Origin: Candidatus Brocadiaceae bacterium
GTDB taxonomy: Bacteria > Planctomycetota > Brocadiia > Brocadiales > Brocadiaceae
Reading direction: 5' to 3'
Length of the DNA stretch: 39,219 bases
NCBI GenBank assembly: GCA_015661205.1
Contig: JACVXV010000005.1
Span: forward strand, 1-39,219
Part shown: positions 10,721 through 38,896 of the stretch, in pieces
Position numbering within the stretch: the first letter of the stretch is position 1
Layout of the letters: each line of letters begins with the position of its first letter
Program-made: the position numbers and the translations under genes
The notes under the pieces: generated by a model
Database searches by the model: none
The model's input: only the letters and a program-made list of their open reading frames with translations
Told to the model about the DNA's origin: nothing

Positions 10721-10744
10721 ATATTGTATAGAAATTTCAGAGTT

Positions 10745-11118
10745 AGGCCTGAAAGGCCGACAGGACATAGCGGGGGGTTCACCCCGTTAGATAACAGATT
10801 TCGAACAGGAGACACAATGAATACTCACCAGTTTTTCCAAAGTCACGCTACTCACTACAACACAATATCTAACGGGGTGAAGCCCCCTGAAAAATAATAA
10901 AATAATACAAGCCCCAAAGGGGCGACAGGGTATTTTGTTTTCGTGATAAAAACAATGGTAAATTCTAGGAAAGACAAGTGTCCAAGCCATGTTAAGCATC
11001 CTTTTCTGTCGCCCCTTCAGGGCTTGTTATAGTATTCCATTTACCAGGGGCTTCACCCCTGGCTATATACTTCCAGCCCTTCGGGCCTGTTGTAGAGCGA
11101 AGAGGTTCTTTGCTCTCT
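10745..11118. repeat. Composite palindromic element, copy A
   Basis: The left arm is GGCCTGAAAGGCCGACAGG, then a GGGGGG...CCCCCTG hairpin and a CAAGCCCC/GGGGCGACAG hairpin. Next comes a conserved spacer of about 75 bases containing GGTAAATTCTAGGAAAGA and CCAAGCCATGTTAAGC. The right arm then mirrors the left: CTGTCGCCCCTTCAGGGC, CCAGGGGCTTCACCCCTGG, CAGCCCTTCGGGCC. Copy B (34001-34270, inverted) and copy C (38981-39122, partial) share the spacer and right arm. The nested inverted structure suggests a MITE/REP-like element or a structured RNA. No transposase is seen nearby. Confidence 0.8.
10778..10881. repeat. Hairpin-bounded 104-base insertion inside composite element A
   Basis: TTCACCCCGTTAGATA at 10778-10793 is the exact reverse complement of TATCTAACGGGGTGAA at 10866-10881. 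The segment interrupts the GGGGGG/TGAAGCCCCCTG hairpin that is continuous in copy B near 34225-34250. The about 72-base interior resembles nothing else in the window. This looks like a small element inserted into, or expanded from, the repeat. Confidence 0.6.
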
Positions 11119-11132
11119 TATGAAAATGCACG

Positions 11133-11190
11133 GTTACAGAACGAAGTATCACTTCGTTCTACAAGTCAAAGTCGCCAACGGCCTAATTAA
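11133..11190. repeat. Modular palindromic element with AGAACGAAGT core
   Basis: AGAACGAAGT (11138-11147) and ACTTCGTTCT (11151-11160) form a perfect 10-bp stem with a 3-base loop. It is followed by the end module GTCGCCAACGGCCTAATTAA in inverted orientation. It directly abuts the next element (11191-11262) in tandem. A similar core (GAAGC...GCTTCGTTC) lies in the element at 15302-15404. Confidence 0.65.
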
Positions 11191-11262
11191 ATGTATAGGA
11201 ATTTCAAAGTAGGGACACGGTGCCCGTGTCCTTACGTGTGAACACAAATAGGTCGCCGAATG
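11191..11262. repeat. Modular palindromic element with GGACACGG core (inverted)
   Basis: The end module ATAGGAATTTCAAA is followed by the palindromic core GTAGGGACACGG...CCGTGTCCTTAC, then GTGTGAACACAAATAGG and the GCCGAATGCC end module. The inverted counterpart with almost the same core and ends is at 22687-22778. Related cores lie at 28078-28128 and 30672-30720. Confidence 0.7.
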
Positions 11263-11287
11263 CCTAATGTAAGGCACCCCATTAAAT

Positions 11288-13042
11288 TTACGTTTTTTTC
11301 TCCAGAATTGCAAGGTTTTGTAAGGCAAAATTACAGGACGGGTTAATTTGTAAGGCGGCTTTAAATCCATAGATCGCCGGCTCCAGTTTGCCCAATTTGG
11401 CATAACAGGCGGCCATGTTGGCGATGACCATTGCGTTGGGGGTTGCGGTGGTTTTGAGATGTTTTTCCAGCGCTTCTATAGCCAGGGTATATTCCTCAAT
11501 TTCCATGCAGAGGTCGCTGACGTCCAGGCAGGCGTCGCCTTCGAGCGTGTTTGACCGGAGAGCGTTCAAAATAAAGTCCACGGGGCCTTCCCGGTCGCCG
11601 TTTTTGTATTTGATCTTTTCCCGCAGGCATTGAAGCCCCAGGTGGACCGGATAGTAAGGGGTAATTACGTCCAGCGTTTCCTCAGCCTCCTTTAGTTGGT
11701 TTGTCTGTATAAGCAGGTTTATAACGTAGGTATAGGTAAAGGCGTCTTTCTCAGGGTTCGCTTCTATTGAGCGCCTCATGGCGACGATAGCGGCTTCGTT
11801 TTTCTTCTGCGTAGCGTATATTTTACCCAACAGGAGGTATATTTGATAGGGGGTGACGTCTCTTTCGATTGCAAGGTTCAGGATGTTTTCTGCGTCGTCC
11901 AGCCTGTTCTGCGATAGATAGAGATGGGCGAGATTGGTGTAGTACAAGGGTTCCTTGTTGCTGAGTTCAAGCGCCTTCTTGTAGGCGACTTCCGCCTCAT
12001 TGATAAGCCCCAGGCGTTTGTAACATTCACCCACGTGATTGTAGGCGCAGTGTTCGTAAGAATAAAAATCGGACGCAAGCAGGTTGAAGGCGGGTGTCTT
12101 ATTCTCCTTTTCTTTTTCGATAAGGTATTTTTTGAAATAGTTCAGGGCGTTGTGGATTTCTCCTTTTTTGAAGAGGGTCTCGCCCAATACCAATAACATG
12201 TCAAAATGTTGTGGGTTTTCGTCGAGCGATTGCTTGCAAATCTGTTCCGCCCTGTCCGTCAGGTTCTTATTTAAAAAGGCGTGCGCAAGGTCGATGGAAA
12301 TCTTTTGCCTTTGCCCCTTGAAGATAGCGTCCGTTTGCGGCACGGGCATACTTAACCCCTTTTCGCCCAATTCAATTACTTTGTCAAAGTCGTACTCATT
12401 TCTATAGTTCCGGATGAGGTTTGCCAGGGCAAAGATGTTGTCCGGCTCCCGGGCGACTTGTTCTCGCAGGAGGTCGCCGGTTCTTTTGTATTTTTTCAGC
12501 ATCTCGGATTGCGGCAAATTATATCCGTAATGATACAATTTTATCTCGGATTGGAGCGCATTGCCTTCGAATGCCAGTTGATTGTGTACGATACCATGAA
12601 AACAGGCCTTTCCCCTGCGGAATATCCTGGGAAAATAGTGTTTTGCCTGGCCGCCGGGAAGGTCGCTGTAGATGGCAACGTATATGACATTGTGTGATGG
12701 CGTCCGGATTAAGGTGTGCAGGCGGGGGACGTCTGATTGCTCAAGCGCTTCGTCTGCGTCAATTTGCAGTATCCAGTCGCACGTTGCGTAGCCGATTGAA
12801 TGGTTTCGCGCCTCGCTGAAGCTGTTGCGCCAGGGGTGGTGATATACCTTTGCCCCGAAGGATTGCGCAATCTCAACGGTTTTATCCGTAGAGCCGGTAT
12901 CTACGATGATAATCTCATCCGTTGCGTCTTTGACGCTTTTTAAGCACTGGGCGAGAAATTTCTCTTCGTTCTTGACGATCATGCAGACGGCGATCGTGGG
13001 TCTACCGGTTTTTTGTGCAACCGGTTGTTCTTGCGTGGGCAT
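11288..13042 (-). CDS. Family 2 glycosyltransferase with C-terminal TPR repeats (paralog 2)
   Basis: 584 residues, the same length and architecture as paralog 1 at 8966-10720. The N-terminal GT2 domain has CMIVKNEEKFL, IVDTGSTDKTV and QIDADE (DxD), followed by about ten TPR-like helical pairs. Long stretches are identical or nearly so in both (HHPWRNSFSEARNHSIGY; LLIQTNQLKEAEETL), so the pair arose by a fairly recent duplication. TPR residues differ much more than the catalytic domain, which suggests the same donor chemistry with different acceptors. The start ATG at 13042 follows a repeat-containing leader. Likely cytoplasmic or membrane-peripheral; no signal peptide is visible. Confidence 0.88.
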   Translation of the reverse strand: MPTQEQPVAQKTGRPTIAVCMIVKNEEKFLAQCLKSVKDATDEIIIVDTGSTDKTVEIAQSFGAKVYHHPWRNSFSEARNHSIGYATCDWILQIDADEALEQSDVPRLHTLIRTPSHNVIYVAIYSDLPGGQAKHYFPRIFRRGKACFHGIVHNQLAFEGNALQSEIKLYHYGYNLPQSEMLKKYKRTGDLLREQVAREPDNIFALANLIRNYRNEYDFDKVIELGEKGLSMPVPQTDAIFKGQRQKISIDLAHAFLNKNLTDRAEQICKQSLDENPQHFDMLLVLGETLFKKGEIHNALNYFKKYLIEKEKENKTPAFNLLASDFYSYEHCAYNHVGECYKRLGLINEAEVAYKKALELSNKEPLYYTNLAHLYLSQNRLDDAENILNLAIERDVTPYQIYLLLGKIYATQKKNEAAIVAMRRSIEANPEKDAFTYTYVINLLIQTNQLKEAEETLDVITPYYPVHLGLQCLREKIKYKNGDREGPVDFILNALRSNTLEGDACLDVSDLCMEIEEYTLAIEALEKHLKTTATPNAMVIANMAACYAKLGKLEPAIYGFKAALQINPSCNFALQNLAILEKKT

Positions 13043-13057
13043 TGTTTACCTGTCTTA

Positions 13058-13142
13058 TTTAAATTATGTCGCCGCCTACGGCGACATTTAACAGCGTAGT
13101 GGCAAGGCGCGCCTTGCCACTACACGTACGTTTGAATTTCTT
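13058..13142. repeat. Modular palindromic element with perfect 28-bp palindrome, copy 1
   Basis: The end module GTCGCCGCCTACGGCGACAT is followed by a perfect 28-base palindrome at 13096-13123 (GTAGTGGCAAGGCG and its exact complement), then the end module ACGTACGTTTGAATTTC. The same palindrome recurs at 15437-15464 and 30787-30814, always between the same end modules. It lies in the leader upstream of the leftward gene starting at 13042. Confidence 0.85.
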
Positions 13143-13243
13143 GATTTGGCAAAGGCTTCACACCTACTACATTTTCGCACAGGCTGGAAGCCTGTGCCAC
13201 CATATTCCCTATTATATACCTGTTTAACCTCAACAATTTCATT

Positions 13244-13269
13244 GGCGGATGCGTTTCGCTTCATCCGCC
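13244..13269. repeat. GGCGGAT/ATCCGCC hairpin repeat, copy 3
   Basis: GGCGGAT at 13244-13250 pairs with ATCCGCC at 13263-13269. This is the third member of the family at 4475-4500 and 4970-4995, with compensatory T-to-C/A-to-G stem changes. It lies 25 bases beyond the 3' end of the leftward gene ending at 13295 and could act as a 3' hairpin. Confidence 0.65.
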
Positions 13270-13294
13270 CTATGCACGGGTTTTTACCAAGTTA

Positions 13295-15298
13295 TTAGTT
13301 TTTATGTATTCTCATGATACCATTCTTTACTTCAAATATCCATCCAGGCCTATATTGTAAAACAAAACTACGCAATTCTTCAATAGTGGGATAACCATTA
13401 TCACCCGTGAAATCCTTCACGTCGTCTATAAGGATTACGTGATTCATAATCGTGTGAGCAAAAATAGTTTGTAATTCTTTTAGTATCGGTGTTTCTTGTT
13501 CACCCTTTGCAGTCCCTTTGCCGGAATAATGGCTATCAAGCCAGAATAGACACGTGCTTTGAATGGTACCAAGCAATTTGGGGAGGATATCGCCGCTGTC
13601 GCCCTCTATGATGTGAATATGCGCATCATGGGCAAAAATTGATTTTGTTAATTCACAAAGGTTGTGGTCCAACTCAATAGAAAATATTTCTTTAAACGTA
13701 TTTTTCATGGCGTATGTCGTGCTTCCCACAAATGTTCCGGTCTCAACCAGGATATCAATTGAAAACCGGGTTGCGTAATCTTTGATAGTTTTTTCCTTTT
13801 CTTTGTCGGGTGGAGGGGGTGTTATTTTTCCCGCCCTTGCCCAGGCATGTAATACTGCCCACCGGTGAGTATTTGCTTCCAATATGGTTTCCAAATTCAT
13901 ATCGAATTTGTTTGTATCCGATCGATTGATATTCCCCGCAGCGGTATAACCAATAATCGCTGCCTCCATGCAACCTAATTCCTCATAGCACCACGCAATA
14001 TTTAGCAAGGCCTTTTTATCATGAGGGCATTTCTTTAAATATTCTTCAAGGTACGGTATTGCCTTTCCATAGGCCTTTTGTAGTATGTACAAATCTCCTA
14101 ATTTCAAAAAAATGGCTTCACTGTGGATTCCTTCTAAAACAGCACGCAGCAAGGTATAGATGGCCTCCGTGTTATTATTAATACCCGAGTATATCCGCGC
14201 AAGATTTTCATACGCAGGAAGATATTTAGGGTTGGCATTAACCGCCTTTTGAAAATAGTCAATCGCCTTTTGCCGTTCTCCCAAATTTCCCAGGCAAAAA
14301 CCCAGTCCATTATATGCGGCATACTCATATCCCAACGTGTCAACCGTAAGCGGTATCGTGTGCATATTTTTGAGATACCATTCCCGCAGGGATAAATACC
14401 TGTCAAAGCAATCAATTGCCATAGAGTAAGAGCCTTCCATGAGGTGGGCGCAGGCAAGGGTGAAAACGATATCTATGTTTTCCGGGGTGTGGCCTCGTTT
14501 CGATAACGTTGATAAAGCGGTATTGCACAATTCGAGTGTTTTCGCCGGGGCGTTCGCATGGAGGCAGCAATTGGCGGTTTCATACAGGATCATTGTGTAG
14601 TGGCGCACATTGTTGTCGGGGGTGATGAGTTTGAGCGCCTCCTCGCCCGCCTTAATGCCGTCGTGAAACAGTTCCTGGGTACGGAAGTTTCTGATAAGGT
14701 TAAACCAGGCAAAGCCATTGTATTTGTCCTGTGATAATTGTTTTTTGAGTAAACAGGTGGTCAGTTCCCACTTTCTCCGCATCTTTTCCTTATTAAGGTT
14801 ATAGCCGTGGTGATAAAGCCTAATCTCCGTAGGCAGCCGCTCACCTTCCACCATGATTTGTTCGTGGATAATGTCCTGGTAAAAGGCCTTGCCGCGCCTG
14901 AATACCCGTGTATGGTAAAATTTGTGGAGGTTGTCGTTTATCGTGCTGAGAATGGCTACAGCAACGCCGTTATAGCGGGGGTTATTGATGGCCTGCCGCA
15001 GTGCGGGTATATCCGCCTGTTCCAGTTCTTCATCCGCATCGATCTGGAGAATCCAGTCTCCGGATGCATAACCCAGGGAATGAGTCCTTGCCTCACTGAA
15101 GCTGTCGTTCCATGCATGGTGATAAACACGCGCCCCAAAGCTTTTGGCAATAGCAACGGTATTGTCCGTAGAACCCGTGTCAACAACGATAATTTCGTCA
15201 ACGGTATTTTTAATGCTGTTCAGGCAGGCAGGAAGAAGGGCTTCCTCGTTCTTTACGATCATACAGGCGGAGATGGTGGGTTTTTTAGGGTTTTCCAT
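13295..15298 (-). CDS. GT2 glycosyltransferase-TPR protein fused to a methyltransferase-like domain
   Basis: 667 residues. Residues 6-110 are the GT2 domain (CMIVKNEEALL, VVDTGSTDNTV, DAD at 87-89 in QIDADEELE). TPR repeats fill about 180-490 (for example YNGLGFCLGNLGERQKAIDY). From about 515 the protein departs from its two paralogs and carries a Rossmann-like domain with ETGTFVGSTT (519-528), SIELDHNL and a later LIDDVKDF. That resembles class I SAM-dependent methyltransferases of the FkbM/TylF-like type. It may couple glycosylation with sugar O-methylation. First of the three paralogs in transcription order; the downstream TPR paralogs lack this domain. Methyltransferase activity is inferred from fold motifs only. 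Confidence 0.85.
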   Translation of the reverse strand: MENPKKPTISACMIVKNEEALLPACLNSIKNTVDEIIVVDTGSTDNTVAIAKSFGARVYHHAWNDSFSEARTHSLGYASGDWILQIDADEELEQADIPALRQAINNPRYNGVAVAILSTINDNLHKFYHTRVFRRGKAFYQDIIHEQIMVEGERLPTEIRLYHHGYNLNKEKMRRKWELTTCLLKKQLSQDKYNGFAWFNLIRNFRTQELFHDGIKAGEEALKLITPDNNVRHYTMILYETANCCLHANAPAKTLELCNTALSTLSKRGHTPENIDIVFTLACAHLMEGSYSMAIDCFDRYLSLREWYLKNMHTIPLTVDTLGYEYAAYNGLGFCLGNLGERQKAIDYFQKAVNANPKYLPAYENLARIYSGINNNTEAIYTLLRAVLEGIHSEAIFLKLGDLYILQKAYGKAIPYLEEYLKKCPHDKKALLNIAWCYEELGCMEAAIIGYTAAGNINRSDTNKFDMNLETILEANTHRWAVLHAWARAGKITPPPPDKEKEKTIKDYATRFSIDILVETGTFVGSTTYAMKNTFKEIFSIELDHNLCELTKSIFAHDAHIHIIEGDSGDILPKLLGTIQSTCLFWLDSHYSGKGTAKGEQETPILKELQTIFAHTIMNHVILIDDVKDFTGDNGYPTIEELRSFVLQYRPGWIFEVKNGIMRIHKN

Positions 15299-19063: not shown

Positions 19064-20038
19064 TCAAAATGGATAAATAAGGGTAAAAACGACAGCGTCA
19101 TTTGCATCGGCATTTGCCCCGACGTGCGCTCTTTGGTAACCCAAGAGTGTCTGGAATTTCCCATTTGACCAACTAATACCCGTGGTACTTGTTAAAGAAT
19201 TACTATCCGAAGCCGGCAGTTTTACGCCATCTTCTTCTTTATCGCCTTGTAAAAAGCCGTTAATTTCAAACAACAGGTCAAAACCTTTGGGTAAAAAATA
19301 GTCGATACCCAAATCGTAATTTAGGTAATTGCCATAGTTTGTTTCAACGCCATCAATCCGCACGTTTTCCGTAAAGCTGTATGTAGCATCTGCGTGGAGT
19401 ATAAATGGTTTTATCCTTTTTGATAAAATAAGCCCGTAGCCATGGTCGTAAGAACCGGTGCCCATTAAGTCCGTTTCAAGCTTATCAGTGTCTGCGTGTT
19501 GATATTTGCCTGTAGGCAACTTTAACTGAAATAACCCTGCTATATGAGGTAACCAGTCCTTTTCTTCAACAATACAATGACGTAAGAAAAGATAACTGTC
19601 GCCAAAACCATGGGAATTGGCGCTACTACCATCTTGCTTTGCAAAATTTTCCTGATAAAGCAGTTGTCCATCGATTTCCAATCTATCCGTGATACCGTAC
19701 TGTGCAAATAATTGCTGTTGAAGTTGATATTTTTTATCGCCGCCTGGTAAAGAATCATAGTTGCCTTCGGTATCAAACATACCCCTGGTTATGCTATGAA
19801 AGAAAAATGGTTGAATCACAAATTCCCCTTTACCACAAAGCGGCGCTGTCCAGGTAATAACGGGCCCTATTGAAATGGGATCCCATTTGTCTGGTTGTTC
19901 ATTTCCTTCAACTTGAGCAAAGGTATACCGTGTGTGGGCTGATACTATAAAACCCACCAAAGTAAACAGTATTAAAATTTTCAGCGCCGTATTCCCTGTC
20001 TCTATCTGTGCAATTTGTAGTTTTGAATGTTTTTCCAT
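19064..20038 (-). CDS. Outer-membrane beta-barrel protein (transporter/MetA-like), B12-regulated operon
   Basis: 324 residues. A hydrophobic signal sequence (about 19-40) ends at TFA, followed by a beta-rich chain ending in TLIYPF with the C-terminal phenylalanine of outer-membrane proteins. Phrases such as LQLKLPTGKYQHADTDKLET and GTGSYDHGYGLILSKRI resemble the Phenol_MetA_deg/transporter-like barrel family, whose substrates are mostly unknown. The ATG at 20038 is chosen because the earlier in-frame ATG at 20122 lies inside the receptor gene; no strong ribosome-binding site is visible. The receptor stops 34 bases upstream on the same strand, so both probably sit under the cobalamin-riboswitch leader. 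A role in corrinoid passage is inference from context. Confidence 0.72.
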   Translation of the reverse strand: MEKHSKLQIAQIETGNTALKILILFTLVGFIVSAHTRYTFAQVEGNEQPDKWDPISIGPVITWTAPLCGKGEFVIQPFFFHSITRGMFDTEGNYDSLPGGDKKYQLQQQLFAQYGITDRLEIDGQLLYQENFAKQDGSSANSHGFGDSYLFLRHCIVEEKDWLPHIAGLFQLKLPTGKYQHADTDKLETDLMGTGSYDHGYGLILSKRIKPFILHADATYSFTENVRIDGVETNYGNYLNYDLGIDYFLPKGFDLLFEINGFLQGDKEEDGVKLPASDSNSLTSTTGISWSNGKFQTLLGYQRAHVGANADANDAVVFTLIYPF

Positions 20039-20072
20039 TTTTATGAGGATAAGTTTCGTGAGCCATGCTCTA

Positions 20073-22238
20073 CTAAAACTTAAATTCAAGCCCTCCATAC
20101 GCAGTGAAGCCGAGGCTGCCAAATCCAGTCACCTCCTCATAGTCATAATCAAAAAGGTTTTCAAATCTGACATACGTTGTCATTGACTTTGTAATGTCAT
20201 ATCGGGTTACCATGTTGGCAGTCCAATAGTTGTCCATTTCCTCGCCGTCACTGTCTATCCTGTCTCTCACCATAATTCCGGTCATATTAACGTTCAATTT
20301 ATCCAGGGGTTGGGTGTTAATCCCCAGGGTTGCCCTGTTTTCCGGTCTACGGGGTAATTGTTGATCTTTATCCCTATCCAGTGTCTCTGTATAGGTGTAA
20401 GTTCCAACCAGTGAGAGCCTGGTAAGCGGTTTATAGGTTAAGGCCGTTTCAATTCCCTCCGCCTCTGCCCTTGCGATGTTTTCTGCCAAATAGCTTCCAT
20501 CACGTTGAACCGCAGCAGAAATTAAATTAGTAAAATCATTCTCAAAATACGTAACATCCAGGATAAGTTTGTTTTTAAGAATTTCTTTCTCTACCCCAAA
20601 GTCCCATCCCGTACTTTCTTCCGGACGGAGGTTGGGATTTCCATAGAACGGGAAAAAGAGTTCATTTAATGCAGGCGCACGAAAACCCTTCCCCCATGAC
20701 CCGTGTAATCGGGTGTCAATGTCCTCAAGGTTATATGACATCGTTGTCCTGTAAGTAAGCTTGTTTCCAAACGTGCTGTAATCATCGTAACGTAACCCGG
20801 CTGTCCAATGTAACGATTCAAACAATTCTATTTGATTCTGGAAGAACAGAGAGTTGTTCCAAAACGTCTTATCAAATTGGCCGTCGTTTTTGCCTTCCGC
20901 TACCTCATATTCATAACCCAAGGTTACCGTATCAATGTCAAATAAAGTAAAGTCAGATTGATGCTCGAGTCTCAATACTCGCGTAGAAATGCGAAACTCG
21001 CTCCATTCATCAGTGAGGTCAAAGCCTTTTAGTTCTGTATCGTTGATTGAGACGAGAAATGAAGGCGTCCACATATCAAAAAAGGTTTTGTTGACCTTAG
21101 TCGAAAAAAGGTTCTCATCTGTTGTCTGGCGTCTATCACGGTCATCTACCGGGCCGATGTCATATTCAAATCCATCGTACTCAAAATCCGAGTGAGCGCT
21201 CCTTATGGTTGTATCAACCCTTCCATTATCCAGGAAATTCCATCCCAGGCGTGAGGAACCGGTGAAATTATCATAACCATCCGCTTCGCTCCCACTGCCG
21301 GCAGCCGATATCCCGTGTGTCTTCAGATAGGAAGCGCCCACCGAATAATCAAATTTTTCTTTCCCACCGGAAACGCCGACATTTTCTCTCAAGGTATCGT
21401 GCGTCCCATATTCCGTCCCCAGGGCGATTTTGGTATCACCCACGCCTCTTTTGGTGATAATATTGATAACACCGCCAATGGCATCAGAGCCATATAATGT
21501 GCTTTGTGGACCGCGCAGGATTTCGACCCTCTCAATGTTGTCTGTTGTAAGATTCGCAAAATCAAATGCCCCGGTGGCAGGGCTATTCATTTGGACGCCA
21601 TCGACAAAAACCAGGGTTTGGGCAGAAGAGGCGCCCCTTATGAACAAACTGGTAGTTCCCCCTATGCCTTGCGTTCTTGCGACTTCAAGTCCTGGTGCCT
21701 GGCGCAGGACGTCGAGTAATAGTGACGCTTTGCTATTTTCTATGTCTTTTTGTGTGATGACGGATACAGAACTGCCAACATTCTTTAATGCCTGCTTTGT
21801 CCTTGTGGGTGTAATGACGGTTTCTTCCCCATTTTCGTTCTGCCCATCCTTGTCGTCTTGTGGTAAATTGTCTTTTGGTATTTCTGGCGAGGGCTTCTCA
21901 TCAACCGATGGTGGTGAATCTACCTTATGTTCTTCGCTGGTATTTTTTTCCTCATTTGGTTGTGTTTGTGTTGCTTCAATTGTTTTGGTTTCCTGTGCAG
22001 GTTTTGTTTCTTCTACAAGGTTTGGTATTTCTTCCTTTTCAGGTATGCGAATAATTAGCTTTTCTTGTGTGGCTTGATTAACCTGGTTTTCTGACGGTTT
22101 TAGAAGTTTTCTATCACGTGTCTCCTTTTTCCATTCCAACGTTGGAATGGGTTCTATTGCTTCCTCTACGGACTCGGCTTGACAATAAAAGCCAGGCGCT
22201 AAAATAATAATCATCAACATAATAAATACCTGTTTCAT
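20073..22238 (-). CDS. btuB: TonB-dependent outer-membrane receptor, BtuB-like
   Basis: 721 residues. A signal peptide (1-21) is followed by an unusual Pro/Glu/Lys/Thr-rich extension (about 22-137) and a TonB-box-like ETVITPTR at 139-146. The plug domain follows (VLRQAPGLEVARTQGIGGTT, FIRGASSAQTLVFVDGVQMN, VEILRGPQSTLYGSDAIGGV), then a 22-strand-type barrel ending in GLEFKF with terminal phenylalanine. Two cobalamin riboswitches upstream in the same orientation make vitamin B12 or another corrinoid the likely substrate. The symbol is given for similarity of role; the match to E. coli BtuB is at family level. The ribosome-binding site AGGAAG lies about 12 bases before the ATG at 22238. TonB/ExbB/ExbD and BtuCDF genes are not in this window. 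Confidence 0.88.
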   Translation of the reverse strand: MKQVFIMLMIIILAPGFYCQAESVEEAIEPIPTLEWKKETRDRKLLKPSENQVNQATQEKLIIRIPEKEEIPNLVEETKPAQETKTIEATQTQPNEEKNTSEEHKVDSPPSVDEKPSPEIPKDNLPQDDKDGQNENGEETVITPTRTKQALKNVGSSVSVITQKDIENSKASLLLDVLRQAPGLEVARTQGIGGTTSLFIRGASSAQTLVFVDGVQMNSPATGAFDFANLTTDNIERVEILRGPQSTLYGSDAIGGVINIITKRGVGDTKIALGTEYGTHDTLRENVGVSGGKEKFDYSVGASYLKTHGISAAGSGSEADGYDNFTGSSRLGWNFLDNGRVDTTIRSAHSDFEYDGFEYDIGPVDDRDRRQTTDENLFSTKVNKTFFDMWTPSFLVSINDTELKGFDLTDEWSEFRISTRVLRLEHQSDFTLFDIDTVTLGYEYEVAEGKNDGQFDKTFWNNSLFFQNQIELFESLHWTAGLRYDDYSTFGNKLTYRTTMSYNLEDIDTRLHGSWGKGFRAPALNELFFPFYGNPNLRPEESTGWDFGVEKEILKNKLILDVTYFENDFTNLISAAVQRDGSYLAENIARAEAEGIETALTYKPLTRLSLVGTYTYTETLDRDKDQQLPRRPENRATLGINTQPLDKLNVNMTGIMVRDRIDSDGEEMDNYWTANMVTRYDITKSMTTYVRFENLFDYDYEEVTGFGSLGFTAYGGLEFKF

Positions 22239-22270: not shown

Positions 22271-22311
22271 AAAAAAGCCCATTTCCTCGTAGAGAGAAGA
22301 AATGGGCTTTT
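22271..22311 (-). terminator. Intrinsic terminator between riboswitch B and btuB
   Basis: AAAAGCCCATTTC (22273-22285) is the exact complement of GAAATGGGCTTTT (22299-22311). Read on the minus strand this is a 13-bp stem followed by a T6 run, 33 bases before the receptor start codon. It is the expected expression platform of the riboswitch at 22371-22644. Corrinoid binding should favour this terminator. Confidence 0.88.
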
Positions 22312-22370
22312 AAAGTATAGATAGCAACGCCGCACCTCCTTTACTCCGAAGAAGTTTATTTTCAGCAAAT

Positions 22371-22644
22371 ATTACAGGCAGGTATTCTGACTTGCGGATC
22401 ATCCTACTGATTGCGCCTTCCCGGAAGCCGTTTAATCAGTTTAAACTGTTTAAACGGCTTTCCAGTGGCTTTGCAACGTTCGTCACCGATTACAGCGGCG
22501 GTACCGTTTCCTTTACTCCACAAAATAATCTGAAGTCAGACATCTTCCCGGATTGCATGGAAGTGATTGTGTAATCTGCAGCCTCTTCAAATTAAACAGG
22601 AGTTGGAATTCCCTTTTAATTCTGGTTGTATGACAACCTGTAAT
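22371..22644 (-). ncRNA. Cobalamin riboswitch B (proximal)
   Basis: Read on the minus strand it has the B12-box features: AAAAGGGAATTCC near the 5' end, a TACCGCCGCTGTAATCGGTG core, GCCACTGG, GGGAAGGCGC, and at the 3' end GATCCGCAAGTCAGAATACC. The closing stem P1 is perfect: CCTGTAAT (plus strand 22637-22644) pairs with ATTACAGG (22371-22378). It has larger peripheral arms than riboswitch A. It is followed by its own terminator (22271-22311) and then btuB, so it should switch off receptor transcription when adenosyl- or methylcobalamin is abundant. Confidence 0.92.
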
Positions 22645-22686
22645 GTGTAATGTATTATTTGTTACAGCGCTATGATGTCCTCCTTT

Positions 22687-22778
22687 TAATTAAGCCTTTT
22701 CGGCGGCTTATTTGTGTTCATACGTAAGGACACGGGCACCGTGTCCCTACAACGGCATTGGAATTTCTATACATTAAA
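22687..22778. repeat. Modular palindromic element between the two riboswitch cassettes
   Basis: It has the end module AAGCCTTTTCGGCGGCTT, then TTGTGTTCATAC, the core GTAAGGACACGGGCACCGTG TCCCTAC and the end module GGAATTTCTATAC. It is the inverted equivalent of 11191-11262. It separates the upstream cassette (riboswitch A plus terminator) from riboswitch B, which suggests insertion or repeat-mediated rearrangement of the leader. Confidence 0.7.
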
Positions 22779-22780
22779 AC

Positions 22781-22816
22781 AAAAAAACCCATATCTCCGG
22801 TGTGAAGATATGGGTT
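22781..22816 (-). terminator. Intrinsic terminator following riboswitch A
   Basis: AACCCATATCT (22786-22796) pairs exactly with AGATATGGGTT (22806-22816). On the minus strand the stem ends in a run of seven Ts. It lies about 95 bases past the 3' end of riboswitch A and resembles the terminator of riboswitch B in size and in the TTTTGTTTTAAT tail. No gene lies between it and riboswitch B. Confidence 0.85.
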
Positions 22817-22911
22817 CCATATTTTTATCAGCAGGATGCATTTGAAAACTGTCCCTGCAAATAGTTATATTTCACCTTCACCTTCTTTTCCGTCGAAGAC
22901 TACGTGAAGCA

Positions 22912-23106
22912 ACTACAGGCAGGTCTTCTGGCTCCCGGATCATCCTACTAATCACCCCTTCCCACCCTTTTAAAACAGGCAGTGGCATTGTGACGTTTGT
23001 ACCCGGTACAGCGGTGGGTCCGCTCCTTATCTCAAACAACACGAGACATGGATTCCCTTTTATTTCAACGCATCTCTGCGCTAAAATACCTATAATTTAT
23101 TTTCTA
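22912..23106 (-). ncRNA. Cobalamin riboswitch A (distal)
   Basis: Minus-strand features: AAAAGGGAATCC at the 5' side, a GGAGCGGACCCACCGCTGT core, GCCACTGCC, GGGAAGGGG, and GATCCGGGAGCCAGAAGACC at the 3' end. P1 forms between plus-strand 23099-23106 (CCTATAAT) and 22912-22919 (ACTACAGG) with two G-U wobbles. It is more compact than riboswitch B. Together with 22781-22816 it forms a complete upstream switch-terminator unit in tandem with the downstream one. Confidence 0.9.
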
Positions 23107-23250
23107 AACAAAAAGAGCAACTCATTCCTGTGTCAATGGGTGGCAATTCTACTGCAAGCAGTAACTATTTGTCAAATGAAATGTTTTGACGACAATTTCT
23201 GCTAAATTAACACGTATGCGGTAGCGAGTCACCCTTGATGTGGTTTCATT

Positions 23251-27853: not shown

Positions 27854-28308
27854 CGGCAATACCACAAAGCTAAAAATAATTTAAAACCTGAAACTCGAAA
27901 CTAATAGTTTAATTCTTCAGCCGCACTATTTCAATATCTTTTATCATAACGACGTTCCCGTTGCCACGAAACCTAATAGCGTAAAGGCGGAAACTGACAA
28001 AAAGATTTTTGGATGTTTCGCGTCCCCCTTACCCAATCTGCGTCCATCCGCGGATATTTTCAACTTTATTATTATATTCACACGTAGGGACACGGCACGT
28101 CGTGCCCCTACTTTGAAATTCCAATTCGTTTCAATTATATGTTTATAGAAAAAAACCAGTTCCTTATTCTACATGAATAAGGTAGAATACCACGCTTACC
28201 GCGGAACAGGGAATATCGAATGTCGAAGAGAATACCTATTTCATCACGGAAAAGCCGTTTAACATAATAGCTTATTGAAACACTGTTTTGGGCGGGGGAG
28301 AAAATGAT
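27854..28308. other. Intergenic region before the chemoreceptor island
   Basis: About 455 bases between divergent genes. It holds a modular palindromic element (28078-28128), a perfect CCTTATTC/GAATAAGG hairpin (28162-28182) and the word CAGGGAATATCGAATGTCGA. Promoters for both flanking genes are expected here, but none was assigned. No coding signal. Confidence 0.6.
28078..28128. repeat. Modular palindromic element with GGGACACGGCACG core
   Basis: CACACGTAGGGACACGGCACG is followed by the inverted CGTGCCCCTAC and the end module TTTGAAATTCC. It is a short variant of the family at 11191-11262 and 22687-22778, with altered inner core bases that keep the pairing. Confidence 0.65.
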
Positions 28309-30555
28309 ATGCAGGAAAATTTAAGTACGCGGATTAAGTGGTTGTTTATTTTTAGTTTGTTCGGTGGGATGATTCCTCTGATCGCCATTGGGGTAATAAG
28401 TTATTTCAAGTCCACCAACGCCCTGGAACACCAGACTTTGGAACATTTGATAAGCTGCAGAAACGCGAAGAAGGCAAATATCGAGGCATGGTTTAAAGAA
28501 AAAGGCGCAAATATCGAAACCCTGGCAGATATCCCACAACTCGCGGAGATAACAAAGGAATTTAAAGTCGCTTTTAAGGAACTCGGCGCGGAAAAGACAC
28601 GCGACCTCTACATCTCAAAGAACCCCTTCCCCGCCGGGAAGAAGTCGGAATACATCGATGCCAGGGATGGCAGCAATTACACGAAGACGCACGTCAGCTT
28701 TCATCCATACCTCAAGGGTTATGCCGAGCAATATGGCTTCTATGATATCTTTATTATAGACGCAGAAACAGGAGACGTCGTCTACTCGGTTTATAAGGAA
28801 CTGGACTTCGGCTCCAATCTGCCCGCCGGGCCTTATAATACGTCGAATTTGGCAAAGTTATTCAGAGAGGTTAATACCTCTGCTGTAAACGCCGCCACCG
28901 ATCGCACGGGTTTTGCTGATTTCGAAGCCTACGCGCCATCCAATGGCGACCCTGCCGCATTTCTGGCACATCCCATTTATGATGGCAACCAAAAGGTGGG
29001 GATACTCGCCGTTCAGTTGCCGGTCAGCAAGATTGACGCCGTTATGCAGGAGCGTTCCGGTCTTGGAGAAACGGGCGAGACCTATCTGGTCGGACCGGAT
29101 AAGCTGCTCCGTTCCAATTCGCGGTTTTCCGAGAAGCCTACGATCTTTGTTCAAAAGGTGGATACGGTAGCGGTAAAAAAGGCGTTTGAAGGCAAGACGG
29201 ATTGTGAGCTTATCAAGGATTATAGAGGTGTCCCCGTTTTGAGCGCTTATGCCCCCTTCAACGCCCTTGGCCTGAACTGGTGTGTTATTGCAGAGATTGA
29301 TGAGGCTGAGGCAGACGCGGCCATCTACAGCTTGAGGATGTGGATGATTATCATCGGCATTGCCACGGCAGTCATGATGGGCGGGCTGGCATTCTTTGTC
29401 ACCAGAAACATGATTGCAATATCGAACGTCTTCAGGGAGATGCTTACGGAACTCCGGGGAAGCTCTTCCCAGGTGTCGGCAGCGTCTGAGCAGATATCGT
29501 CCTCCAGTCAGAGTCTTTCAGAGGCGACATCGGAGCAGGCGGCGTCTATCGAAGAAACGTCGTCTACGATGGAAGAGTTTTCATCCATGACGACACGGAA
29601 CGCAGACAACGCCTCAGAGGCGGCCAAGCTGGCCGCGGCTTGCAACGGCACCGTAGAGAACGCGACGGGCACGGTTGACTCCGGTAATAAGACCGTAGGT
29701 GAAATGGACCATGCGATGAAGGACATTTCCGGCAGTAGCGGAAAGATAGCGGGCATTATCAAGATCATCGAAGAAATCGCCTTTCAGACAAACCTGCTGG
29801 CGTTAAATGCGGCGGTAGAAGCGGCGCGGGCGGGCGAGCATGGGCGCGGATTTGCGGTGGTTGCCGAGGAAGTAAGAAATCTTGCGCACAGAAGCTCGGC
29901 GGCGGCAAAGGACATTACGTTATTGATTGCGGATAGTGTGAAGAAGGCTGAAGTGGGCATGGAACTGGTAGGCAAGACGAAGGGTGTATTTACCACCATC
30001 GCAAAGGTGTTTTCCGGGGTTGTGACACAGGTGAAAAAGGTGACGGATTTGATAAACGAGATATCGGTGTCGTCCCAGGAACAGACGAACGGTATCGCGC
30101 AGATAAGCAAGGCGATCCAGCAGATGGACCAGGTTATCCAGCAAAATGCGGCAACCGCCGAGGAAACGGCGGCGGCCAGCGAAGAGTTGACTGCCCAGGC
30201 GCAGGGACTCAATGCTATTGCAGATAACATAGGCGTGGCGATTGGCTTGGTTGAAGGTGCGGACGAAACAGTAAGTCTGGGCAAACCCGCAGCGCTCGCA
30301 AAGAACGTAGCCAGGTTTCAGAAAAAAGAGGAGGCGCAACCACAGAGAAGCGCCCGGATGTTGCCTAATTCCAAAGAGAAAGTAACCCTCACAAGGCCAA
30401 AGACTGGAGAAAGAAATACCGGTGCGCCCGTCCACCACAAACAGGCAGGCGCGTCGGGTGATGGGCATGCGAGGAAGCGCCCCCTTGGAGCGGTCAACCC
30501 GGAGCATTTGATTCCTATGACAGATGAGGAAGAAGGGTTTAAGGATTTTGATTAA
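28309..30555 (+). CDS. Methyl-accepting chemotaxis protein with Cache-type sensor
   Basis: 748 residues. TM1 about 11-33 and TM2 about 343-366 flank a roughly 300-residue periplasmic region like dCache ([37 protein letters not shown]). The cytoplasmic signalling domain (about 385-645) has the conserved hairpin tip [20 protein letters not shown]. No HAMP domain is evident: only about 20 residues join TM2 to the methylation helices. A poorly conserved 100-residue tail ends in EEEGFKDFD. The frame is open to a TTG at 28288, but ATG at 28309 with GGGGGAG 8 bases upstream is the better start. The signalling half is near-identical over long stretches to the receptor at 30896-32929. It probably controls a Che array through CheA/CheW encoded elsewhere. 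Confidence 0.9.
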
Positions 30556-30639
30556 GGGAAATGCCACGGGAAACTACCCCAGCGCCCCTCCCGGGAGTGG
30601 AATTCAAAAGTTCAGGTTCCAACCCAAACCCGCCGAAAT

Positions 30640-30668
30640 CTCGTTCCCACGCAGAGCGTGGGAACGAG
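30640..30668. repeat. CTCGTTCCCACGC perfect hairpin
   Basis: CTCGTTCCCACGC (30640-30652) pairs exactly with GCGTGGGAACGAG (30656-30668) around an AGA loop. A related hairpin, CTCGTTCCCAAG/CTTGGGAACGAG, lies at 38914-38943. Stem changes are compensatory between the two. Confidence 0.7.
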
Positions 30669-30671
30669 TTG

Positions 30672-30720
30672 ATGTAGGGACACGGCGCGCCGTGTCACCA
30701 CGTGTGAACACAAAAAATCC
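30672..30720. repeat. Modular palindromic element with GGGACACGGCGCG core
   Basis: GATGTAGGGACACGGCGCG and its inverted half CGCCGTGTCACCAC are followed by GTGTGAACACAAAAAATCC. It is a member of the 11191-11262 family and adjoins the 30757-30840 element. Confidence 0.6.
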
Positions 30721-30756
30721 GGCGAGGGCGTTTGGTTTTCCCTTTGAACACGTACA

Positions 30757-30840
30757 TAAATTAGGCCTTCGGCGGCTTTTAACAGCGTAGTGGCAAGGCG
30801 CGCCTTGCCACTACACGTGCATTTGAATTTCCTGTACGTC
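30757..30840. repeat. Modular palindromic element with perfect 28-bp palindrome, copy 3
   Basis: The end module AAATTAGGCCTTCGGCGGCT is followed by the perfect palindrome at 30787-30814 and the end module ACGTGCATTTGAATTTCCTG. The palindrome is identical to those at 13096-13123 and 15437-15464, although here the left end module matches that of 15302-15404. This shows that modules are exchanged. Confidence 0.85.
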
Positions 30841-30895
30841 GAGATAACAACCCGAAAGGGTTGACATATTACTTAACACCTATATGGGAGCGATT

Positions 30896-32929
30896 ATGAA
30901 AATGAGTATCGGCAAGAAGATGATGCTGGGCGGATTGATACCGACCCTTACGATAGGCATATTTATTTACATGCTTGTCTCTGAAAAAATACACGCAAAA
31001 TCGGAAAGCGACAGCGTCTGCGAACTCACCCAATATATTGTAACGGCGAGCGGCCTTGTACATGAATTACAAAAAGAGCGCGGCGCTTCCGCGGTTTTCG
31101 TGGGCAGCAAAGGAACCAGGATGAAGACCGAGCTTGATGGGCAGAGAAAAAATACCGACCGGGCGCTATCCGACTTCCAACAGTATATGGCGTCATTTAA
31201 TGCCGGACGGCACGGTTCTCAATTCAATTCATGTTTGAATACGGCCGTAAATAGTCTCAGTAATTTGCGCACAAAGAGGGATGCAATTAATTCACTTACC
31301 TTATCGAAAGAGGAAGCCATACAATACTACACCGCTGCCAACACCGCCTTTATTCAATCATTTGAACAGTGCGTACTGGAAGCAAACCACCCGCAACTCT
31401 CGACGCCTGTTTGCGCCTACGTGAGCCTTATATCGGCAAAAGAGCTTGCAGGCATTGAGCGGGCGACTATGAGCGGCGTGGCTACGACAAATACCGCCAT
31501 CAACACAAATACCTTGAGGAGTTGGATGGCCGCGTGGATGGGCGCCGAAAAACTTCTCCATTCCTTTGAATATCTCGCCTCAAAAGACGCGCGTGCCTTT
31601 TACCAATCAAGCCTTGCGGGAAACGTTTCGGAAAAAGTTGCAGACATACGGAACGTATTATTGGGAAAGGTGGGAGAAGGCAATTTTGGGGTCGCGGGAA
31701 AAGACGTGTTTGATGCCACAACGGTAAGAATCAACGCATTAAAAGCCGTGGAGGACTTTCAGGCGACCGAGGTTCAAAGCGTTTCCCGAAAAGTGGCTTA
31801 CAGCGCTATAATAGGCATCATCGTGTGCGCAGTTATTAGCGTTTTTTGCATTGCGTTAGGGGTGGTATTGACTATTTCCAATATAAATGTTGCCACAAAG
31901 GTAATGGAGACCTTTAAAAGCTTGCTTACGGAGCTTACCGGCGGCGCTTCGCACGTGGCTTCTGCATCGCAGCAGATATCGGCTTCCAGCCAGAGCCTTT
32001 CTGAGGCAACAACGCAGCAAGCGGCTTCCATAGAAGAAACTTCGGCAACGATGGAAGAGTTTTCTTCCATGACGTCGCGAAATGCGGACAATGCTTCAGA
32101 GGCGGCAAAACTGGCTGTGGCCTGCAACAATTCCGTTGAAAGCGGGCACGACACGGTTGAAAACGGCAACAAAACCGTAAACGAGACGGACCATGCGATG
32201 AAGGACATCTCTGCAAGCAGCGGAAAGATCGCCGGCATTATCAAGATTATCGAGGAGATCGCCTTCCAGACAAACCTGCTGGCGTTGAATGCGGCTGTGG
32301 AGGCGGCACGCGCGGGCGAACACGGGCGTGGGTTTGCCGTGGTGGCTGAGGAGGTGCGGAACCTTGCGCATAGAAGTTCGGCAGCAGCAAAGGATATCAC
32401 CTCGTTGATAGCGGATAGCGTGAAGAAGGCAGAGGCGGGCATGGACCTGGTAGATAAGACAAAGGGCGTTTTCATTGAGATAACCCAGGTGTTCACAGGG
32501 GTCATGGTGCAAGTGAAAAAGGTGGCGGACCTGGTGAACGAGATAGCCGCGTCTTCCCAGGAACAGACAAATGGCATCGGGCAGATAAGCAAGGCTATAC
32601 AGCAGATGGAGCAGGGCACGCAGCAAAACGCCGCAACCTCGGAAGAAATGGCTGCATCCAGTGAAGAGTTGTCTTCACGGGCGCAGGAACTCAACGGCCT
32701 GGTTGACAGAATCGCAGTGGAAATCAATTTACAGGATGATGGAACAAATGCAGTAGTTCAACCGACAACTACACCTAACAAAACAACCGGCTTTTTAAAG
32801 ACACGGGAAAATATGGCTACCCAGGCAACACCTGCCCACAATGCCAGGACAGGTCTTTTCGAAAAAAGACATGGGAAGGGGCTTGCATTAACAGAATCAA
32901 CGTCGGACGACGAAACAAAAGATTTCTAA
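30896..32929 (+). CDS. Methyl-accepting chemotaxis protein with NIT (nitrate/nitrite) sensor domain
   Basis: 677 residues. TM1 about 9-27 and TM2 about 302-326 enclose a helical NIT-type domain (about 48-285) with the hallmark [11 protein letters not shown] (58-68) and the second motif [13 protein letters not shown] near 184-196. This domain family is known or proposed to bind nitrate and nitrite. The signalling region (about 350-615) is highly similar to that of the receptor at 28309-30555, hairpin tip included. There is no HAMP domain, and the C-terminus is DDETKDF. The ATG at 30896 has GGGAG 5 bases upstream, so it is preferred over the ATG at 30884. A hemerythrin gene follows after 17 bases, so receptor and oxygen/NO-binding proteins are probably one transcript. 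Confidence 0.9.
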
Positions 32930-32946
32930 GGAGGTGAGGAGGGACT

Positions 32947-33357
32947 ATGGCGCTTAAATGGAGTGAAGAGTTATCAGTAGGCGTAGAGGCAATAGACAAC
33001 CAGCACAAGTCGATATTTGCCATGGCAAACAATTTACTTGATGCAATGGAAGCAGGCCATGGAAAAGAAGAGGTCGCTGAGACGATAGCGTTTTTAAGAA
33101 AATATATCTCGGATCACTTCTGTGACGAAGAAGAACTCATGATCAACCACAACTTTTCCGGTTACGCAGAACAAAGGAAAGAACACAAGCGATTTTTAAC
33201 GGAGTATTTAGCCCTGGAAGCCGAGTTTGAGGCAAAGGGAGCCTCTTCCCATTTTGTCGTGAAAACCCAACTGTTCCTGTCCTCCTGGTTAATAAACCAT
33301 ATCAACAAGTCGGATAAGGCTATAGGCGGGTTTTTGAAGAAGGAGTACACATTATGA
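32947..33357 (+). CDS. Bacteriohemerythrin lacking one iron-ligand histidine
   Basis: 136 residues, single hemerythrin domain. Six of the seven canonical diiron ligands are present: H20 (DNQHK), H57 and E61 (DHFCDEE), H80 (KEHKRF), H118 and D123 (NHINKSD). The position four residues before H80, normally histidine, is Gln76 (codon CAA). The coupled neighbour at 33354 has histidine there. Loss of that ligand may open one iron site, as in enzyme-like or NO-reducing diiron proteins, or may impair iron binding. An AAGGAGGTGAGGAGGG ribosome-binding region precedes the ATG. It lies 17 bases after the NIT receptor gene. Confidence 0.9.
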   Translation: MALKWSEELSVGVEAIDNQHKSIFAMANNLLDAMEAGHGKEEVAETIAFLRKYISDHFCDEEELMINHNFSGYAEQRKEHKRFLTEYLALEAEFEAKGASSHFVVKTQLFLSSWLINHINKSDKAIGGFLKKEYTL

Positions 33358-33773
33358 CGTTACAATGGACAGAAGATTTAGCGACAGGTGAACGTGTCAT
33401 TGATAATCACCACAAAAACATCTTCAAAGTGGCAAATGACCTGCAAGCGGCAATAAATGAGGGCAAAGGAGAAGAGTTCGCCGGAAAGATTCTCCAGTTC
33501 CTGGAATACTATGTGACCGAGCACTTTCGCGCTGAAGAGGATTTTATGACAAAGTACAACTATTTTCAGGGCTACACGGCACACAAGGCAGACCATAAAC
33601 AATTCATGAAGGATTTCGATGCCTTTAAGAAGGAATTTGCAACAAAAGGGGCAAGCGCATCACTGGCATTGCAACTTCAGTACTGGCTGTTTAACTGGCT
33701 GACAATCCATATTGGCCGGGAGGATAAAAAACTGGGGGCATTCATGCTGGCAAAACAAAAACACAAGGGGTGA
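33354..33773 (+). CDS. Bacteriohemerythrin, complete diiron site
   Basis: 139 residues, single domain with all seven ligands: H20, H57, E61, H77, H81, H119 and D124 (motifs DNHHK, EHFRAEE, YTAHKADHKQF, WLTIHIGRED). Such proteins bind O2 reversibly and may also handle NO or deliver O2. The ATG overlaps the stop of the preceding hemerythrin gene (ATGA, 33354-33357), so the two are translationally coupled and probably made in similar amounts. The pair may form a heteromer. Cytoplasmic; no signal peptide. Confidence 0.93.
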   Translation: MTLQWTEDLATGERVIDNHHKNIFKVANDLQAAINEGKGEEFAGKILQFLEYYVTEHFRAEEDFMTKYNYFQGYTAHKADHKQFMKDFDAFKKEFATKGASASLALQLQYWLFNWLTIHIGREDKKLGAFMLAKQKHKG

Positions 33774-34321
33774 TGCAGCCCACTGTTAGGAGCGAATCAT
33801 TTGTTTTCAATGGCCGAAACGAGCCCACGCCCATTCAAACAAATGCCTCGCCCCTTTATTGGCTGAATTTAAAAAACCGTCCCACCTTCTTGCAGCGCCG
33901 ACCTTTATGGTCGGCATTAGCGGGGGATAAACCACCGTGCTACGAGATTATTTTGAATTTCTGCCGGCCAGTTCAATCTACAAGATTGAACCGGCAGAAG
34001 CGAAGAGCCTCTTCGCTCTCCAGCAGGCCCGAAGGGCTGAAAGTATATAGCCAGGGGTGAAGCCCCTGGTAAATGCAATAATATAACAAGCCCTGAAGGG
34101 GCGACAGAAAAGGATGCTTAGCATGGCTGAGACACCTATCTTTCCTAGAATTTACCAGTGTTTCGATCCCGAAAACAAAACACCCTGTCACCCCTTCGGG
34201 GCTTGTATTTTTTATTATCTTTACAGGGGGCTTCACCCCCCGCTATATCCTGTCGGCCTTTCAGGCCTATCTTTGAATTTCCTATACGTTAAACTTCTTC
34301 AGGCTCCTGCTTTGCTGAACC
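33774..34321. other. Repeat-filled gap between the hemerythrin pair and the c-di-GMP gene
   Basis: About 550 bases without a gene. Hairpins GCCGACCTTTATGGTCGGC (33889-33907) and CTGCCGGCCAGTTCAATC with its complement (33961-33997) precede composite element copy B (34001-34270), followed by the end module CTTTGAATTTCCTATACG. The promoter of the long sensor gene may lie after 34270 but is not evident. Confidence 0.7.
34001..34270. repeat. Composite palindromic element, copy B (inverted)
   Basis: Read on the minus strand it reproduces copy A (10745-11118) without the 104-base insertion: GGCCTGAAAGGCCGACAGG, the GGGGGG...CCCCCTG hairpin, CAAGCCCCGAAGGGG, the spacer with GGTAAATTCTAGGAAAGA, then CTGTCGCCCCTTCAGGGC, CAGGGGCTTCACCCCTGG and CAGCCCTTCGGGCC. 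The spacer is the best-conserved part, although only the arms are needed for pairing. Confidence 0.8.
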
Positions 34322-38260: not shown

Positions 38261-38476
38261 AAAACCATTCCGACCGTCTGTATATGCCCCGTAGGGGCAA
38301 CCGCTAATAGACAGGCAATTCATTGCCTGTTTCCAATGTGGCGTGCCATAAAGTCCCGTAGGGACAACTGAAAACAAGGCAAATACCATAGATTGTGGAA
38401 CGTGTAATTCCGTATTACGCCCCCTCAGGGCTTGATACATCTTTTTATTTGTCATATTTTACCCGGAGAAATTGCA
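38261..38476. other. Short palindromic repeats between the c-di-GMP gene and hemerythrin 3
   Basis: The gap contains GCCCCGTAGGGGC, CAGGCAATTCATTGCCTG, GTCCCGTAGGGAC and CGCCCCCTCAGGGC words. They are hairpin-forming but not members of the two main repeat families. No gene is seen. Confidence 0.6.
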
Positions 38477-38896
38477 ATGGCAGACGATATCCATTGGAAG
38501 AAAGAGTACGAAATCGGAATAACAGAAATTGACAACCAGCACAGGAATTTCCTAATCCTGATCAATAACATACACGCGTATGCGGCGGGTAAATACAAAA
38601 TCCTTGCTTTGAAGCGGCTGGTAGAAGAGTTGACACTGTACGCGAAGTACCATTTTTTTAGTGAAGAAAACCACATGCTGGAAATTGCGTACCCACTTTA
38701 TAACGAACACGTCCGGTTACACGAAGACCTGCTGAGTTCGTTCAGCGAAATGATATTTGACACGGATTGCACCAACACGGACGTGCATAAATTGCATACC
38801 TTTTTGCTCGATTGGTTCAAAACCCATACGATAACGGAAGATAAGAAGCTTAGCGAATACGAGAAAACACTTATTGAAAATGCAAAGGTAGGGTGA
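38477..38896 (+). CDS. Bacteriohemerythrin, third copy in the island
   Basis: 139 residues with all seven ligands: H22 (DNQHR), H59 and E63 (YHFFSEE), H78 and H82 (NEHVRLHED), H117 and D122 (THTITEDK). The open frame runs back to 38432, but the ATG at 38477 has CCGGAG 9 bases upstream and gives the normal start (DIHWKKEYEIGI). Sequence is clearly different from the coupled pair at 32947-33773, so it is not a recent duplicate. It lies downstream of the GGDEF/EAL sensor in the same orientation and could supply or sense O2 or NO for it. Confidence 0.92.
   Translation: MADDIHWKKEYEIGITEIDNQHRNFLILINNIHAYAAGKYKILALKRLVEELTLYAKYHFFSEENHMLEIAYPLYNEHVRLHEDLLSSFSEMIFDTDCTNTDVHKLHTFLLDWFKTHTITEDKKLSEYEKTLIENAKVG

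Follow-up and report, generated by a model that had tools for sequence, protein, structure and literature searches.

The stretch of DNA analysed here, 39,219 nucleotides long and referred to as the window, comes from an anammox bacterium of the Brocadiaceae and carries two cobalamin riboswitches in series ahead of a gene for a BtuB-like receptor. The aptamers, the terminators and the receptor gene are all located on the minus strand, and the features of the locus are as follows.

23146..23175, minus strand: sigma-70-like promoter TTGACA-18-TAGAAT ahead of unit 1 (11/12 match to consensus)
22901..23108, minus strand: aptamer of unit 1, a class A cobalamin riboswitch (RF00174, 80.7 bits, E 1.7e-18)
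22784..22818, minus strand: intrinsic terminator of unit 1 (consensus scan and hairpin energy)
22360..22656, minus strand: aptamer of unit 2, a class B cobalamin riboswitch (RF00174, 82.3 bits, E 5.9e-19)
22273..22311, minus strand: intrinsic terminator of unit 2 (consensus scan and hairpin energy)
20073..22238, minus strand: BtuB-like TonB-dependent receptor gene, the regulated gene (Pfam TonB plug and barrel domains)
19064..20122, minus strand: predicted outer-membrane protein gene, next after the receptor (weak Phenol_MetA_deg match)

Using Rfam cmscan on the window we found that both aptamers cover model positions 1-189 of RF00174, which is its full length, with scores to be compared with a gathering score of 31.5, and that no other Rfam match in the window lies above threshold; the whole genome (3.9 Mb, 96.7% complete) likewise holds two RF00174 matches, both of them in the window. 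This bears out the original prediction of two cobalamin riboswitches in a common direction, whose coordinates were correct to about 15 bases. The separate intrinsic terminator that it assigned to each unit is also there (22818-22784 and 22311-22273, each with a hairpin energy of about -22 kcal/mol, -21.8 kcal/mol for unit 1), the window's list of open reading frames holds none of 100 aa or more between the units, and the next gene downstream is indeed a TonB-dependent receptor. The interval between the units contains, at 22750-22728, one copy of a palindromic repeat (GTAGGGACACGG..CCGTGTCC) that is dispersed through the genome, with 154 strand-matches.

The best PDB matches of the receptor are BtuB, and its close relatives are found in Candidatus Brocadia, Kuenenia and other Brocadiaceae. 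Its top NCBIfam match is TonB-B12 (TIGR01779) at 316.1 bits against a curated cut-off of 599.7, and because the score is below that cut-off we call the protein BtuB-like only, though this is the best-scoring family. The predicted outer-membrane protein gene that follows possibly belongs to the same operon. In relatives (locus L058 of genome G024) a small DUF4430-like, transcobalamin-like protein and a CobN-like protein, both named from reading of their sequences, come after the receptor, and the window has neither of them. Elsewhere, the window encodes three tandem paralogous glycosyltransferase-TPR proteins (8966-15298), and at 28288-38896 chemotaxis receptors adjoin small hemerythrin-like proteins and a large PAS-GGDEF-EAL protein, names that were given from reading the translations.

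Two aptamers with their own expression platforms form a tandem of riboswitches of the same class, and that they share one RNA is suggested by the placement of promoters. The best inter-unit promoter candidate in the window, located at the start of unit 2, matches the consensus at 9/12 positions, close to the shuffle mean of 7.9, and we judge a promoter there to be unlikely. The only good promoter is the one upstream of unit 1, and the two units are therefore likely to be carried on one transcript.

RF00174 matches were found in 53 of 59 relatives of the same order. When matches within 700 nt were counted as one riboswitch cluster, these relatives and the window together gave 100 clusters, 50 doublets and 50 singles, from which the doublet L070 of genome G036 is to be discounted as it consists of two overlapping matches. 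Three genomes from elsewhere in the class, outside this order, also have doublets (G064, G066 and G071). Of the 50 doublets counted above, one has an inter-unit promoter candidate of 10/12. The view that tandem cobalamin units are unusual holds globally, where multiple-aptamer leaders make up less than 1% for AdoCbl switches (PMC2258182) and a later survey counted 26 AdoCbl doublets in total (PMC9481103), but it fails within this lineage, in which half of the clusters are doublets. The same-class, "pseudo-cooperative" tandems described in these two reports likewise consist of two complete serial units with their own expression platforms; they differ in that here such tandems account for half of an order's clusters and usually combine a terminator unit with a subsequent translational unit, whereas the window has a terminator unit followed by another terminator unit. 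In the open-access literature we found no paper linking anammox bacteria with these riboswitches.

By the sequence 3' of the aptamer, 139 of the 150 units could be sorted into three classes. Class A continues with GCTTCAC..TCTTCGATGGTAAAGAAGGTGAAGG, a spacer whose length varies and a terminator; class B with ACTTCTTCGnnGTAAAGGAGGTGAAGCG, a short linker and a terminator; and class R, which is translational, with TTTCCGAGGGGAAAAGGAG immediately before the start codon. Terminators are accordingly present in 61/61 class A units, 24/24 class B units and 0/54 class R units, and in a tree of the aptamers class R (53/53, support 1.0) and class B (support 0.998) are clades. The loops L5 and L13 read ACC/GGU in class A, UACC/GUA in class B and CCCC/GGGG in class R, a complementary change over 3-4 bases. 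These units share the core aptamer, B12 box and P1 of the AdoCbl riboswitch of RF00174, as well as the receptor and cobalt genes downstream, and have a putative counterpart of its L5-L13 pairing; they differ from it in the division into three classes and in the shortness of the putative L5-L13 pairings of A and B. The class B P13 pattern occurs in 22/62 genomes of the order, all of them Brocadiaceae. Among the genomes searched, the pattern CTTCTTCGN{2,5}TAAAGGAGGTG is confined to that family, and class B was found neither in 392 phylum-wide genomes nor in the order's other families.

Most doublets are of the types A-R (n=22) and B-R (n=17), so that the usual second unit is translational; besides the window, the A-B type was found in G009, G011 and G015. 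The order-wide doublets L040-L088, in which a terminator-type cobalamin unit is followed by a translational unit, have the layout of a dual-level gate. A TTGACA-16/18-TATAAT-like promoter is located upstream of most A-led doublets, at a similar place, and is mostly absent before B-led doublets. In the complete genome G012 a single run reads A-cbiM-cbiQ-cbiO-cobD-cobQ-B-R-receptor-ExbB-ExbD (we take the names cbiO, ExbB and ExbD from our reading of the sequences), and this gene order together with the promoter pattern places A next to the promoter and B-R inside the operon. Class A is therefore the promoter-proximal type of the lineage and class B its operon-internal type.

As for the origin of the A-B pair, 67% of the aligned aptamer positions are the same in unit 1 and unit 2. 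Aptamers in other genera are closer: the nearest of class A share 86-89% identity with unit 1, and class B-like ones share up to 90% with unit 2. Since each unit resembles its class-mates elsewhere (88-90% identity) more than its neighbour (67%), we reject a recent tandem duplication, and by these sequence comparisons the pair appears to consist of old paralogues of two ancient classes. In the window genome cobQ is located on another contig, with no riboswitch there, and one CbiM was found against two or three in relatives, a count to be read with the window assembly being incomplete; the A-B-receptor arrangement therefore resembles a locus of the G012 type minus its middle and its R unit. Most likely, as far as an incomplete assembly allows us to infer, A and B came to be adjacent when cbiMQO-cobD-cobQ and a third unit, of the translational kind, were lost. 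G009 and G011 have an R-led receptor that is separated from A-B by the remnants of a receptor gene. Instead of gene loss, a translocation could have brought about the collapsed operon at the window locus; G015 has A-B-receptor and, apart from it, a cbi operon led by A.

In both loops unit 1 differs from what is normal for class A: it has ACCCA in L5 and, in L13, GGA instead of GGU. Its kissing loop may therefore be weak. Such departures are what one would see if unit 1 were decaying and unit 2 were the sole regulator of the receptor. We regard this as unlikely, for unit 1 has retained a good RF00174 score, its promoter, its antiterminator and a terminator of -21.8 kcal/mol.

The elements by which the two units would switch are listed below.

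22876..22909, minus strand: P13-like hairpin of unit 1, with L13 loop GACGGAAAA where the class norm is GAUGGUAA (class A platform comparison, fold)
22875..22886, minus strand: putative antiterminator strand of unit 1, AGAAGGTGAAGG (duplex with the terminator 5' arm -12.2 kcal/mol, z -2.2)
22334..22355, minus strand: P13 hairpin of unit 2, ACTTCTTCGGAGTAAAGGAGGT, with a Shine-Dalgarno sequence in its 3' strand (class pattern, fold)
22333..22342, minus strand: AAAGGAGGTG, a perfect complement of the 16S 3' end CACCTCCTTT and also the putative antiterminator strand of unit 2 (complementarity, duplex analysis)
22310..22327, minus strand: mini-ORF TTG CTA TCT ATA CTT TAA, with its stop at the terminator foot (start, frame and stop conserved in class B)

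Pairing of the P13 3' strand with the 5' arm of the terminator has a mean energy of -11.7 kcal/mol in class A and -11.3 in class B, with -12.2 for unit 1 and -13.4 for unit 2 of the window. The z-scores against shuffles are modest, averaging -1.0 in class A and -0.6 in class B. Taken by itself, the pairing energy thus comes close to what chance would give, and the conserved position of the strand outweighs its energy as an argument for an antiterminator. When the tail of unit 2 is folded without the terminator 3' arm the antiterminator forms, and with the 3' arm P13 and the terminator form instead. The ligand of cobalamin riboswitches usually favours the kissing loop and P13, and this logic combined with the complementarity suggests that both units are OFF switches.

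We therefore think it probable that the BtuB-like receptor is controlled by two cobalamin OFF switches arranged in series within a single leader RNA. The aptamers, terminators, complementarities, promoter placement and class membership on which this model is built are direct results of the analysis. At low cofactor levels each terminator would have its 5' arm paired with the 3' strand of the P13 in its own unit, and polymerase would pass both units; with cofactor bound, the L5-L13 kiss would stabilise P13, free the terminator and stop transcription at unit 1. Polymerases that escape unit 1 would face a second test at unit 2, and the output would approximate the product of two dose curves, making the response steeper and less leaky. 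The ligand binding, direction of switching, steepness and evolutionary history in this model are what we infer from those results.

The original prediction had offered either a steeper response or a NOR-like gate. In the latter the two units would sense different corrinoids or cobalamin forms as two inputs, as might be read from the differences between classes A and B in L5/L13 and the peripheral arms and from their 67% identity. Against it, RF00174 is the best family for both aptamers and both classes precede genes for B12 import or synthesis; we consider it very improbable. Since a NOR gate needs two different inputs and both aptamers belong to RF00174, a steeper response to a single input is the simpler reading, and of the two gates the data favour the pseudo-cooperative one.

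Unit 2 has a further property, one that the original prediction did not mention, and it concerns the ribosome. In class B the P13 3' strand AAAGGAGGTG is a perfect 10-nt Shine-Dalgarno sequence inside the hairpin that the ligand would stabilise; the matching 16S 3' end motif TGGATCACCTCCTTT was found in five relatives and not in the window genome, presumably because its 16S gene is unassembled. This sequence is followed by a mini-ORF with TTG, GTG or ATG 6-10 nt after the end of GGAGG, 2-4 further codons and a TAA or TGA abutting the terminator. In a test of the linkers for a start, an in-frame stop and a stop no more than 4 nt from the GC stem of the terminator, 18/24 distinct class B linkers passed automatically where shuffles lead one to expect 2.8-3.8, statistics that overstate the significance because related sequences are among the linkers. 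Two more (G025 and G027) were positive by eye, which gives 20/24, and a second run found 18/22 class B linkers positive. On the aptamer tree the start columns changed 1, 0 and 1 times and the stop columns 1, 3 (A/G only) and 0 times, while the four codons between them changed a mean of 3.9 times per site (P 6e-4). Linkers of variant length (24, 26 and 27 nt) retain the frame through GTG or ATG starts at other positions. The conservation of start, frame and stop suggests that translation of the class B mini-ORF is probably under selection. The mini-ORF is absent in 4/24 linkers, through loss of the start in G024_L059, loss of the stop in G029_L131, and in both G015 copies; in one G015 unit (L117) the stop is lost, and the frame that begins at an ATG continues into the loop of the terminator. 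Among class A leaders, which served as a control, 9/60 had the pattern against 3.3 expected, and as these ORFs are mostly long and unrelated we make no general mini-ORF claim for class A. The class A leaders L092, L093 and L098, from related genomes, carry ORFs of about 14-16 codons that start near the P13 3' strand and end 2 nt before the terminator; here too the leader may be translated.

A conserved translatable leader ORF that ends at a terminator is what a translation-coupled attenuator has, and unit 2 may act as one, alone or together with the antiterminator. Without ligand, a ribosome would load on the Shine-Dalgarno sequence, translate the 5-codon ORF and at its stop cover the 5' arm of the terminator, allowing read-through; with ligand, P13 would hide the Shine-Dalgarno sequence, no ribosome would load and the terminator would form. 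Besides the ORF test, the slow change of start and stop columns relative to the codons between them and the frame kept across indels, precedent comes from E. coli, where the efficiency of a terminator fell from about 90% to less than 10% with a stop codon 5 bp upstream of it (PMC4824070). In the pyrBI attenuator and tR2 (PMC4824070) it is likewise a ribosome at a nearby stop codon that prevents the terminator hairpin, but the signal there is the position or supply of ribosomes, whereas here the riboswitch would gate ribosome access. For an upstream ORF gated by a B12 switch the nearest precedent is ppe2 of M. tuberculosis, in which the Shine-Dalgarno sequence of the uORF is also masked in an L13-bearing hairpin (PMC11260477); that system is translational, its uORF controlling translation of the next gene with intrinsic terminators not involved, whereas the class B ORF has 4-6 codons with its stop and ends at the terminator. 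Several observations weigh against coupling to translation in unit 2: the linkers that have no mini-ORF, the antiterminator, which uses the same bases and would hide the Shine-Dalgarno sequence, and the distance of only about 75 nt from that sequence to the terminator end, leaving a short time for ribosome loading. Given the apparently selected mini-ORF and the E. coli and ppe2 precedents, we place ribosome-assisted antitermination beside, or together with, the plain antiterminator, and our grading of it overlaps with that of the serial-switch model because both can hold together. We tentatively propose, then, that class B aptamers of the Brocadiaceae control access to the Shine-Dalgarno sequence of an ORF of 4-6 codons, counting the stop, and that the ribosome terminating there blocks the terminator.

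If this is true, class B would be a translational riboswitch acting as an operon-internal transcription switch, with the ribosome as its antiterminator, and we found no such case in the open-access literature searched. Cobalamin doublets have been reported as rare, yet they form half of the clusters in the anammox order, where a terminator-then-translation layout recurs and the targets are receptor operons as well as cobalt/cobamide operons. An order this rich in doublets, with distinct classes and targets, therefore offers a natural series for testing what is gained from a second riboswitch.
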